Assembly: GCA_000153145.1 (NCBI GenBank)
Contig: CH672415.1
Location: 2,533,645-2,588,218, forward strand
Reading direction: 5' to 3'
Length of the DNA: 54,574 nucleotides
DNA from: a marine actinobacterium PHSC20C1
Lineage (GTDB): Bacteria > Actinomycetota > Actinomycetes > Actinomycetales > Microbacteriaceae
The position numbers and the translations under genes were made by a program. The notes below the pieces were generated by a model. It saw only the letters and a program-made list of their open reading frames with translations, made no database searches and was not told where the DNA came from. Positions 18,585-22,330 of this stretch are shown piece after piece. Within the stretch, counting starts at the first letter, position 1; each line of letters begins with the position of its first letter.

Positions 18585-19022
18585 GTGGGCAATCTAGGTG
18601 TCTACTCCAACCCCACCGAAGGATGGGCCTTTGTCCCTTTTCTCGGTATCGTTCTGGCTTTTGTGGTCATTGTCGTTGCTGTTCTTTACTGGATGGCGGG
18701 CCCACGCTTAAGGATCACAGCCACAGTGTTCACAATCGCGGCACTGGCAATTAGCGCGGGCAGCGTTCTTGGACTGGCTGCTGCTGCGACCTCGTTTGCG
18801 CAGCGGGATACCGCCTCATTTGTGAAGTACTCAATCGATATTCAGGTTTGGGCCGATCGCGAGTATGACGTCACGCTCACTCGCGACGACGTTGCGGACC
18901 TCGTCGATGGTCGTTCGGTGTCTGTGAAATCTAGGGGAGTCGCCGTGGACGTTCGTCTTCGCCCTGTTCCGAACAGCTCCAGCGTTTATTTTGTCCACCT
19001 CGGAGGCGCACCACTTCAATAG
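18585..19022 (+). CDS. Small membrane protein of unknown function
   Basis: A 145-residue protein I do not recognise. Two hydrophobic helices at about residues 17-42 and 46-67 are joined by a short positive turn (GPRLRIT). The C-terminal half is soluble and beta-rich, with DREYDVTLTRDDVADLVDGRSVSVKSRGVAVDVRLRP. The second helix is Ala/Gly-rich, so the C-terminal domain probably lies outside or at the membrane face. The GTG start at 18585 has AAGGCGA 6 bases upstream. It stands alone between a terminator hairpin and the convergent metallo-hydrolase gene. Confidence 0.7.
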   Translation: MGNLGVYSNPTEGWAFVPFLGIVLAFVVIVVAVLYWMAGPRLRITATVFTIAALAISAGSVLGLAAAATSFAQRDTASFVKYSIDIQVWADREYDVTLTRDDVADLVDGRSVSVKSRGVAVDVRLRPVPNSSSVYFVHLGGAPLQ

Positions 19023-19064: not shown

Positions 19065-19835
19065 CTAGCCGCCCACCGGGGAGTGCTCAACGCTAACAGC
19101 GACGCCTGGCGGCGTATCCACGAGCAACCCCGTCCCCGCGAACGCAGCTTCGAGATCGGCACGGGTTTCGGTGAAGTGCTCCCACCCCTCGGTGTGGAGG
19201 CCGACCACATGGTCGACGCCCAAGATTCTGGCGGCTTCTGCGGCATCCGCTGATGTCAAGGTGAGAGGGCCGTTGACCGCGGAGATGCGGGCAGCACCCG
19301 CGAAGAGCACCGCAATGCTGGTGTCGGGGAAGCGGTCGGCGATTTGCTGCACCAGCGGCAGGGAGGCGTTGTCGCCGCTGACGTAGATGGTGGGTTCGCC
19401 CTCGGCTTGCAGCACGAAACCGGTGACCGGGCCAACAAGGGCTTCAGCACCGGGAGGGCCGTGCAGTGCGGGTACTGCTGTGACGGTGACAGCGCCGACC
19501 TCACGAGATTCCCAAGAGTCGAGACCGACAACACCTCCGCCGAAGAGGTCAGAGCCCGCCTTCATGGTGCTGATCGTCAGCACGCCGGTGGCCAAAAGTT
19601 CGAGTCCCTCATAGTCGAGGTTGTCTTCGTGTTCGTGGTGCGACAACAACACGAGGTCGACAGCGCCAACATCCGCCCGTCTCAACGCCGGACCCACCGT
19701 CTTGGTGAGCGGCACACCGCCCTCGTCGGGGTAAAGCTGCGGCGCATCAAAAGTGGGGTCAGTTACGATGCGCAATCCCGCATATTCGAGCAACGCAGTA
19801 GGGCCGCCAATGTAGGTCACGGTCAACTTCGACAT
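19065..19835 (-). CDS. Metallo-beta-lactamase-fold hydrolase (UlaG-like)
   Basis: A 256-residue MBL-fold protein. The metal motif region reads SHHEHEDN, in which the usual HxHxDH is HEHEDN: the last His is Asn, so metal site 2 may be altered. Later ligands are plausible in VSGDNAS and [10 protein letters not shown]. The N-terminal [24 protein letters not shown] resembles the UlaG/UPF0173 start, where such proteins cleave small cyclic or lactone substrates; no substrate is assigned. The ATG has no ribosome-binding site, and its -10 (TAGTCT) lies 6 bases upstream inside the divergent gene's start region. Confidence 0.82.
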
Positions 19836-19849
19836 ACTCTGAGACTATG
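19833..19849. promoter_or_regulatory. Overlapping divergent leaderless promoters in an 11-bp intergenic
   Basis: The 17-mer CATACTCTGAGACTATG contains the start codon of the minus-strand hydrolase (CAT, 19833-19835) and of the plus-strand DUF255 gene (ATG, 19847-19849). The plus -10, TACTCT (19835-19840), is 6 bases before the ATG. The minus -10, TAGTCT (19847-19842), is 6 bases before the other ATG. Each -10 shares one base with the opposite start codon. Confidence 0.7.
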
Positions 19850-21751
19850 CCCAATCGTCTGGAAACTGCTGCGAGCCCATACCTGAGATCACACGCCACC
19901 AACCCGGTGAACTGGTGGGAGTGGTCTGCCGAAGCTTTTGCCGAAGCGGAACGCCGAGATGTTCCCGTTCTGGTCTCCATCGGCTACTCCACGTGCCACT
20001 GGTGTCATGTGATGGCGCGCGAATCCTTCAGCGACCCCGTGCTGGCCGCCTACCTCAACGAGAACTTTGTGGCGATCAAAGTAGACCGTGAAGAACACGC
20101 CGAAGTGGACTCCACCTATCTGGCGGCGGCATCCGCCTTCACTCCCAACCTAGGCTGGCCGCTCAACGTGTTCGTCACGCCCGCGGGGCGAGCCTTCTTT
20201 GCCGGCACCTACTGGCCACCGACCGCGGTGGGGCAGCATCCGGCATTTCGGCAAGTGCTCGAATCAGTGACGGATGCGTGGCTCACCCGCCGCGAACAGG
20301 TCGAGACCAGCGGCAGCGCGATAGCTGAAGCGCTTGCCAGGAGCCGTGCCGTCGAGAGCGAACTCGTCACCGACTTTGCTGACGTGATCGATGCGCTCGC
20401 TGCCGCCGAAGACCTCGAGCATGGCGGATTCGGCGACGCCCCCAAATTTCCGGTGACGCCGGTGCTGCGGTTCCTTCTCGATCGCGGGGCTCGCACCGCG
20501 GAACACTCGCCAGAGGCAGCAGGCCTCGCCGATCGCACGCTGAAGGCGATGGCGGCATCCGCCCTGCGCGACCCGGTCGATGGCGGCTTCTTCCGCTACT
20601 CCACCCAGGCCGACTGGACTGACCCGCACTACGAACGCATGCTCTACGACAACGCCCAACTGCTTGCCGCGTATGCGCTCGCCGACTCGGCGGAGATCGC
20701 CACCGGCGTCGCCGACTTCTTGCGCGACAAACTGCTGCTGCCTTCAGGAGCATTCGCATCAGGTCTCGACTCCGAAAGCACCGTCGACGGCAAACGTGTC
20801 GAAGGCTTCTACTATTCGCTGGATGCCGCCAGCCGCGCCCGCGTCGAAGCCCCGCCCCGCGACGACAAGATCCTCACCGGCTGGAATGGTCTCGCCATCG
20901 AAGCTCTCGCTTTGGCTGGCGCCCGTCATGGCAACCCCGAGTGGATCGCGCTGGCCCGCGGTGCCGCTGACTTCCTGCTCGCCGAGCACGTGGGTGCCGG
21001 GAACTCGGCCGGCGACCCTGCGGGGGAGCGGCTCGTGCGCACCTCCATCGACGGCATCCTCTCCGACGCGGCAGCAACCCTCGAAGATAGTGGGATGCTC
21101 GCCCAGGGCCTGCTCGAACTCTCCATTGCCACCGGTGAAGTGCGCTACGCCCTCGCTGCCCGCAACCTCATCGACGGCGCGCTCGCAGCCGGAGCTGCGG
21201 GTTCGGCAAGCTCACCCTTCGGCCTCCCCGGCGGCACCGACTCCGTACTCGCCGCCCAAGGCCTCTCGACCGAAGCCGACATCAGCGACGGAGCCCACCC
21301 CAGCGGCCTCAGTGCCATGGCCGCCGCCGCCCACACCCTCTTCGCTCTCACCGGCGACGCCCAATACCGGGATGCCGCCGAGACTTCCATGAAACTGGTC
21401 GGCCAGCTCGCAGCCCAGCAACCGATCTCGTTCGGAACCGCCCTCACCCTCATGTCGGAGCTCGGTGCACCCCTGCGCCAGCTCGTCGTTGTGACGGCGG
21501 ATGAGGCGGGTGGCGGGGCTGCCGGCGGCCACGAGCTCACGAGTCTGGCCCGCAAGCTGCACCGCGCTGGAGGCATTGGTGTCGCAGTGTCGCAGGCTCA
21601 GGCGGACGCTTTTGCGGCATCCGGTTTCGAACTGTTTGCCGCTCGCGCCGCCACCGACGGCGCACCGACGGCGTACCTGTGCGAAGAGTTCGTGTGTCGA
21701 CTGCCGCTCACCGATGCGGCCGCGCTGACAGCGTTGCTTGCCTCAGCGTGA
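19847..21751 (+). CDS. DUF255 thioredoxin-fold protein (YyaL/spermatogenesis-associated 20 family)
   Basis: A 634-residue protein. The N-terminal third is a thioredoxin-like DUF255 domain (residues 1-165) with Sx[10 protein letters not shown] and the CHWC redox-type motif at 50-53. The remainder is an alpha/alpha-barrel-like region with [43 protein letters not shown] and [14 protein letters not shown], all family landmarks. The family is widespread but its activity is poorly defined, so none is assigned. It starts on a leaderless ATG shared with the divergent hydrolase promoter and overlaps the end of a convergent TetR gene by 9 bases. The coding sequence is dense in GGATGC/GCATCC words (eight counted). 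Confidence 0.9.
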
Positions 21752-22330
21752 GGAAGGAGCCGCCGACGCCAGAGCAGCGACTACCTGGAGAAGCTTTTCG
21801 GCGCTGAACTCTTCGGGGCGACGCACAACATCGATCGCGGCTCCCTGAATGAGAGCGATGAGTGTCGATCGGAACGCATCGGGGGCAAGGCCGTGCTCGT
21901 GAGCGAATCGGTTTGTGATCGGCTCCATGGTGTCGGCGTAGCGGCTCAGGCCGGTGTTGAGTTCGTCACGAAACTCCGTGCTCTGGCGGAAGAAGTAGAA
22001 CTGAAAAAGAAGATCGACGTCGTCGCGCTGAGTGTGCAGACCTTCCAGCTCAGTGGCCACCATATGAAACAGGGCGACGTCTGCTGGCAATTCGCTGCCG
22101 AAACCATTTTCGGGGCCGTCGAGAGTCGTCGAGAGTAGTCGCGCAAGCAGAGCGTGCAGGAGTCCGTCTTTGGATTCAAAGTAGAAGTAGATGAGGCCGT
22201 TCGAGAGGTCGGCTTCTGCGGCAACCGTGCGAGCCGAGACAGTTTCTAGCCCGCTACGGATTGCCACGGTTTTTGCGGCGGCGAGAATGTCGTCGCGCCG
22301 CTCGATCTCTGGTTTCTTTACTCCGACCAC
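21743..22330 (-). CDS. TetR-family transcriptional repressor
   Basis: A 195-residue repressor. The N-terminal HTH spans about residues 10-55 ([52 protein letters not shown]). The rest is the variable helical ligand domain. The GTG start at 22330 lacks a ribosome-binding site, but TAAGCT ends 6 bases upstream, pointing to a leaderless mRNA. A palindrome in the gap to the divergent SDR gene is the likely operator for both genes. The ligand is unknown but may relate to the SDR substrate. Confidence 0.9.

Follow-up and report, generated by a model that had tools for sequence, protein, structure and literature searches.

The metallo-hydrolase and DUF255 genes of the marine actinobacterium PHSC20C1 point away from each other, and both of their start codons lie within 17 bp. 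From which promoters could two such genes be transcribed, and is the arrangement more than an accident of a single locus? We analyzed this junction in a window of 54,574 nucleotides (the whole stretch of DNA that was studied, from contig CH672415.1) and compared it with related genomes. A preliminary description of the same DNA had proposed two leaderless genes with interlocked -10 elements, mutually exclusive expression, and a design that was not known before.

Two start codons and two predicted -10 elements in 17 bp

Direct reading of positions 19833-19849 confirmed the junction CATACTCTGAGACTATG as the preliminary description had given it, with both start codons, two -10 hexamers at 6 bases from their own starts, and an overlap of one base on each side (Table 1). 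On each strand, TANNNT is followed by 6 bases and then by its own ATG, and a single base is common to each hexamer and the opposite start codon. The two hexamers are 1 bp apart and do not overlap each other. The claim of a near-palindrome also held, as 14 of the 17 positions match the reverse complement of the 17-mer. The opposed -10 elements are mirror copies of TANNNT, and each predicted transcription start coincides with the first base of the opposite hexamer, with a spacing of 12 bp between the two predicted starts as derived from the -10 positions.

Table 1. Genes and predicted promoter elements at the divergent junction (positions counted from the first base of the window).
Feature	Position	Strand	Remarks
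Beta-lactamase-superfamily metal-dependent hydrolase, 256 aa	19065..19835	-	PF12706 3.6e-14, PF13483 1.6e-9
DUF255 / Thioredox_DsbH protein, 634 aa	19847..21751	+	PF03190 1.1e-64
17-bp junction CATACTCTGAGACTATG	19833..19849	.	both start codons and both -10 hexamers; read directly
Predicted -10 TACTCT, DUF255 gene	19835..19840	+	first base within opposite start codon
Predicted -10 TAGTCT (minus-strand reading), metallo-hydrolase gene	19842..19847	-	first base within opposite start codon
DUF255 start codon ATG and predicted transcription start 19847	19847..19849	+	5' end predicted
Metallo-hydrolase start codon ATG and predicted transcription start 19835	19833..19835	-	5' end predicted

The DUF255 frame has an in-frame stop at -48, with no alternative start between this stop and the ATG, and its next possible start codon lies 20 codons downstream. 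In the hydrolase frame, the stop TAG at -12 forms the first three bases (the first half) of the gene's own -10, and there is no earlier start; TTG and GTG, 3 and 5 codons downstream of the ATG, are alternative starts by sequence alone. None of five kinds of SD-like tetramers occurs at -20 to -4 on either strand of the junction. The best match to TTGACA at the junction agrees in 3 of 6 bases, which leaves no good -35. Both genes have the features by which leaderless genes are recognized, TANNNT about 12 bp before the start codon and no SD.

The hydrolase scores below the cut-off of model NF001911. DUF255 relatives were found in 80 of 120 Microbacteriaceae genomes (E 1e-30), and at 41 loci in the genome contigs searched. 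On the far side of the hydrolase gene, and tail to tail with it, lies a 145-aa ORF on the plus strand (18585-19022) without a Pfam or NCBIfam match. On the far side of the DUF255 gene, a TetR-type regulator gene (PF00440) on the minus strand (21743-22330) and the DUF255 ORF overlap by 9 bp at their 3' ends.

Chance expectation and leaderless genes in the genome

At this GC content, the probability of finding both TANNNT elements in a given CAT-N11-ATG is about 0.0016 (about 0.16% of cases). When the window was shuffled 100 times, the pattern CATANNCTNAGNNTATG never appeared, with up to one mismatch allowed. CATANNNTNANNNTATG occurs at 2 places in the 2.77 Mb genome, versus 1 for the reversed control, and both places are divergent gene starts, namely those of DUF255/hydrolase and of pabB/pabC. 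The second place (G000:C1:878379-878395, or 1501-1517 of locus L001) separates genes that match chorismate-binding enzyme / anthranilate synthase component I and class IV aminotransferase, respectively; from these matches and general knowledge, we take them to be pabB and pabC.

Leaderless genes were counted in the window and 20 spread stretches (454,574 bp in total, 366 genes by a simple codon model). TANNNT ended exactly 6 bases before a candidate ATG or GTG in 70 of the 366 genes and 7 bases before it in 19; each of the other spacings from 0 to 29 was found in 1-14 genes. Together with the conservation and recurrence of the arrangement reported below, the peak at 6 bases supports the proposal of two probably leaderless genes with interlocked -10 elements. 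Among 57 divergent neighbours in the sample, 9 are readable as doubly leaderless. A gap of 11 was found in 2 of these 9, the window pair and pabB/pabC, a biased fraction because the already known pabB/pabC place fell in one of the stretches.

Recurrence across Microbacteriaceae

The preliminary description had suggested a search for similar junctions in related genomes. Among 120 Microbacteriaceae genomes, the 17-bp form (6-base spacers) gave 69 matches in 52 genomes versus 16 for the reversed control, and the 18-bp form (7-base spacers) gave 66 matches in 57 genomes versus 23 (all four totals summed by hand from tables). Both forms together thus gave 135 matches versus 39 for a reversed control that retains no start codons, and these counts overstate independence and fit, because the genomes are related and the scripts choose among in-frame starts. 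For three other spacings together, 30 matches were found versus 46 in the control (same genomes, by subtraction), so the excess is spacing-specific (Fisher p ~1.5e-8).

Sequences were fetched for 30 of the 69 matches of the 17-bp form and for 30 of the 66 matches of the 18-bp form. ORFs of at least 50 aa led away from both ATGs in 19/30 and 25/30 of these loci, respectively (11 and 5 being non-divergent by this measure), compared with 14 of 136 CAT-N11/12-ATG sites without the double -10, all taken from the PHSC20C1 genome alone. All but a few of the divergent pairs were assigned an identity. The recurring ones are pabB/pabC, map with a small gene, upp with a deaminase gene, and DUF255/metallo-hydrolase (in other genera too). 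The small gene opposite map (methionine aminopeptidase, M24) has no Pfam match, and the deaminase gene paired with upp is presumably tadA. Once among the fetched loci, and in another genus, DUF255 is paired in the same 11-bp geometry with the gene for polyphosphate kinase 2 (PPK2; L200 and L253). The layout therefore recurs at unrelated gene pairs.

Homologous DUF255 junctions

Starting from 106 loci, those without an N-terminal DUF255 match were dropped, and L003-L007, which are identical to the window junction over the 17 bp, were left out. A divergent hydrolase or PPK2 gene was found within 500 bp at 25 loci (two of them, L026 and L249, identical in the compared stretch). In 24 of these 25, each strand has TANNNT upstream of an in-frame start at a distance of 6 or 7 bases, a number favoured by scripts that accept any fitting in-frame start (here and in the pabB/pabC set below). 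The intergenic gap in the 24 dual loci is 11 (11 loci), 12 (2), 22 (7), or 35, 48, 57 and 82 (1 each); the distance between each -10 and its start is kept on both strands while the gap varies. Three loci (L008, L014 and L015) have the geometry of the window junction and differ from it only in the NNN of the plus-strand -10. In the gap-22 class, one TA is common to both -10 elements, and one of the two starts is GTG in all 7 loci.

These data bear on the possibility that only one promoter is in use at the window junction, and that the mirror-image element results from base composition and from the bases that ATG and TANNNT have in common. The TA of each hexamer is indeed half-supplied by a start codon, with only an A and a T per side needed beyond it. 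Moreover, the 25th locus (L011) has a degenerate CAGACT at the DUF255 -10 position; the loss of one -10 at a homologous junction is what the preliminary description had named as speaking against its own reading. However, the other 24 junctions keep both elements, even at gaps of 22 bp or more, where the elements and the start codons have no bases in common, and the excess over controls is specific to the two fitting spacings. We consider use of a single promoter unlikely.

The DUF255 upstream regions were also compared regardless of the partner gene, using 35 of the 41 loci (6 with a match that does not begin at the start codon were omitted) and merging L003-L007 with the window, which left 31 rows. 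TANNNT begins at -12 in 17/31, at -13 in 3/31 and at -11 in 1/31, and only 1 more match was found elsewhere from -40 to -6. Many DUF255 genes have no divergent hydrolase or PPK2 partner, and their own TANNNT is often kept.

This locked position weighs against transcripts with leaders, which would start inside the opposite coding sequence and be translated with the help of weak SD-like purines near the ATG. The DUF255 homologues often have purines at -6 to -3 (G at -6 in 24/31), a position too near the ATG for SD pairing. Yet TANNNT is confined to -11 to -13 in the 21 of 31 regions that have it there and is almost absent elsewhere, and translation led by an SD was rejected for the junction itself, as it has no SD-like tetramer on either strand. 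Leaders on these genes are, in our view, very unlikely.

Junctions of pabB/pabC and map

The stronger pabC matches among the 113 of 120 genomes with any match define 70 pabB/pabC loci, of which 65 were counted (L192 is without a pabC match, and L167, L180, L185 and L187 are without a pabB match). The double signature is present in 48 of the 65 and absent in 17. The gap in the dual loci is 11/12 in 37 cases, 17/18 in 8, and longer in 3. In the 17/18 class, both -10 elements have one heptamer TANNNTA in common in 8/8 loci (TAGCCTA in 6), and both starts are GTG in 5/8. In the 11/12 class, ATG starts are no independent evidence, because they are forced by the geometry. Gaps of 13-16 were not found among the doubly signed loci of the DUF255 and pabB/pabC sets. 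Gap class changed at least 6 times on the DUF255 tree (11 and 12 taken as one class) and at least 10 times among three classes on the pabC tree; the direction of these changes is not fixed in either tree, and well-supported branches force only some of them.

For map, 30 of the 93 genomes with a map match were sampled (L256-L285). TANNNT is found at -13 in 28/30 loci and at -12 in 2/30. In 23/30 loci, T(-1)A(+1) at the map start forms the -12/-11 end of an opposing -10, and this core is absent in 7/30. Among the 23 core loci, 11 begin with CATA and 12 are without an adjacent CAT for the opposite small gene. In 10 of these 12 loci, CTCC or CCTCC was found, the SD complement for the opposite gene; the interlocked core can thus be kept even when one gene has apparently acquired a leader.

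The varying gaps leave little of the idea that a regulator of the two genes binds the near-palindrome as its operator: 14 of its 17 positions are palindromic and a TetR-type gene is nearby (21743-22330), but the half-sites lack a fixed spacing among homologous junctions (gaps 11, 12 and 22, or 11, 12, 17 and 18) while their distance to the start stays at 6 or 7, and the same layout is found at unrelated gene pairs, so that we set this reading aside as extremely improbable.

The pattern outside the family

A class-wide search covered 246 genomes, 12 of them from Microbacteriaceae. In the 234 others, 104 matches were counted by hand versus 61 in the control. ORFs of at least 50 aa were present on both sides in 5 of the 25 loci examined outside Microbacteriaceae, and no recurring gene pair was apparent by eye among these 5. 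Over all 28 examined loci (25 from the class-wide search and 3 from a phylum-wide search), 8 had such ORFs on both sides, and 3 of the 8 belong to Microbacteriaceae (L289 and L290, both map pairs, and L291). In the phylum-wide search itself (246 genomes), many genomes with high counts had equally high controls, and no conclusion was drawn from it for this reason. Given the weak excess and the lack of a recurring pair outside Microbacteriaceae, the double-signature layout may be a speciality of this family, or the pattern may fit other families less well.

Comparison with known promoters

Bidirectional promoters of bacteria were reportedly first described in 2021 by Warman, Grainger and colleagues. 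In later accounts, their opposed transcription starts are 7-25 bp apart (PMC10268837), with spacings of 18 (most often), 10 and 23 bp being common in E. coli (PMC12825309, PMC10268837) and small variations around these classes allowed (PMC12825309). As far as these accounts go, the junction resembles such promoters in its opposed -10 elements in pseudo-symmetric DNA, in that a transcription start may fall within the opposite -10, and in that one binding event blocks the other (PMC12825309, PMC10268837). Unlike in the common classes, the predicted spacing in the fused form is 12 or 13 bp; the 12 bp predicted for the window junction is none of 18, 10 or 23, and might count as a variant of the 10-bp class, given the small variations allowed (PMC12825309). 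Homologous junctions do reach 18/19 bp (pabB/pabC gaps 17/18) and 23 bp (DUF255/hydrolase gap 22). A further difference from the bidirectional promoters portrayed there is that the predicted promoter includes the two start codons and would yield two leaderless mRNAs.

Leaderless genes of actinobacteria have TANNNT about 12 bp before the start codon, no SD and no -35 consensus (PMC3160421, PMC3898074). The junction is like them in the placement of TANNNT and in the absence of SD and -35, and unlike the genes described there in that a divergent pair of them has bases in common. Closely juxtaposed divergent promoters are reported for M. tuberculosis, where prpD/Rv1129c is a divergent pair with both mRNAs leaderless; the available sections on these cases make no mention of bases shared by a start codon and the opposite -10 (PMC3160421, PMC3898074).

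Divergent genes with overlapping core promoters are also known from lysG/lysE of M. tuberculosis (PMC5648196) and from the EcoRV and CfrBI restriction-modification systems (PMC5333194). The lysG/lysE intergenic region has 108 bp and one additional leaderless lysE start (PMC5648196), and, by the authors' statement, the C transcript of EcoRV is not leaderless (PMC5333194). Unlike the 17-bp junction, these systems are regulator-controlled (PMC5648196, PMC5333194).

Among the papers listed in a full-text literature search, none was seen to describe the start-codon-fused, doubly leaderless form, which is weak evidence of absence, as most subscription papers lie outside the scope of such a search. 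The claim of a design not previously described may be kept for this form; it does not extend to bidirectional promoters as such, which are described with spacings of 18, 10 and 23 bp.

Proposed mechanism and implications

Together, the observations point with high probability to CATACTCTGAGACTATG being a bidirectional sigma-A-type promoter that incorporates the start codon of a leaderless gene on either side. RNA polymerase with the main sigma factor (sigma-A type) would bind in either orientation. Transcription directed by each TANNNT would initiate six (or seven) bases further downstream, at the A of the corresponding ATG, giving two mRNAs with AUG at their 5' ends. At each start codon, the first base pair would double as position -12 of the opposite -10, which is why the 11/12 spacing would need ATG on both sides. 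For a transcription bubble from about -11 to +2, the open complexes would extend over 19836-19848 and 19834-19846. Since both orientations would melt nearly the same bases, one binding event likely excludes the other at that instant.

Such exclusion per binding event differs from the mutually exclusive expression that had been proposed, for which we found no support as stated. At ordinary initiation rates, both genes would be expressed, in a linked ratio. The two enzymes encoded by pabB and pabC belong to one pathway, and their joint supply is needed. For five E. coli bidirectional promoters, one study reports basal initiation so low that neither direction influenced the other, with repression of the partner appearing on activation (PMC12825309). 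Linked expression is the better guess than mutually exclusive states, given this low basal activity and the recurrence of the layout at a one-pathway pair, and it is the putative selected function.

A wider proposal, to which we give an even chance, is that Microbacteriaceae keep a distinct class of bidirectional promoters in which transcription starts are 12/13 bp apart and the start codons themselves are promoter DNA. Selection would maintain this class at pabB/pabC, map, upp/deaminase and DUF255/hydrolase to tie the outputs of each pair, and over evolution it would change to the 18- or 23-bp class by discrete steps.

In the junction, leaderless mRNAs and bidirectional promoters, both well established, would come together in a single very compact element whose bases would specify where two proteins and their two transcripts begin. 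These pairs of genes also occur in related species with gaps of 11/12, 17/18 and 22 bp or longer, a natural series for studying the way in which two polymerases share one -10 region. For Microbacteriaceae, the data also suggest a rule for the annotation of starts based on CATANNNTN(1-2)ANNNTATG, which often indicates the two start codons of divergent genes.
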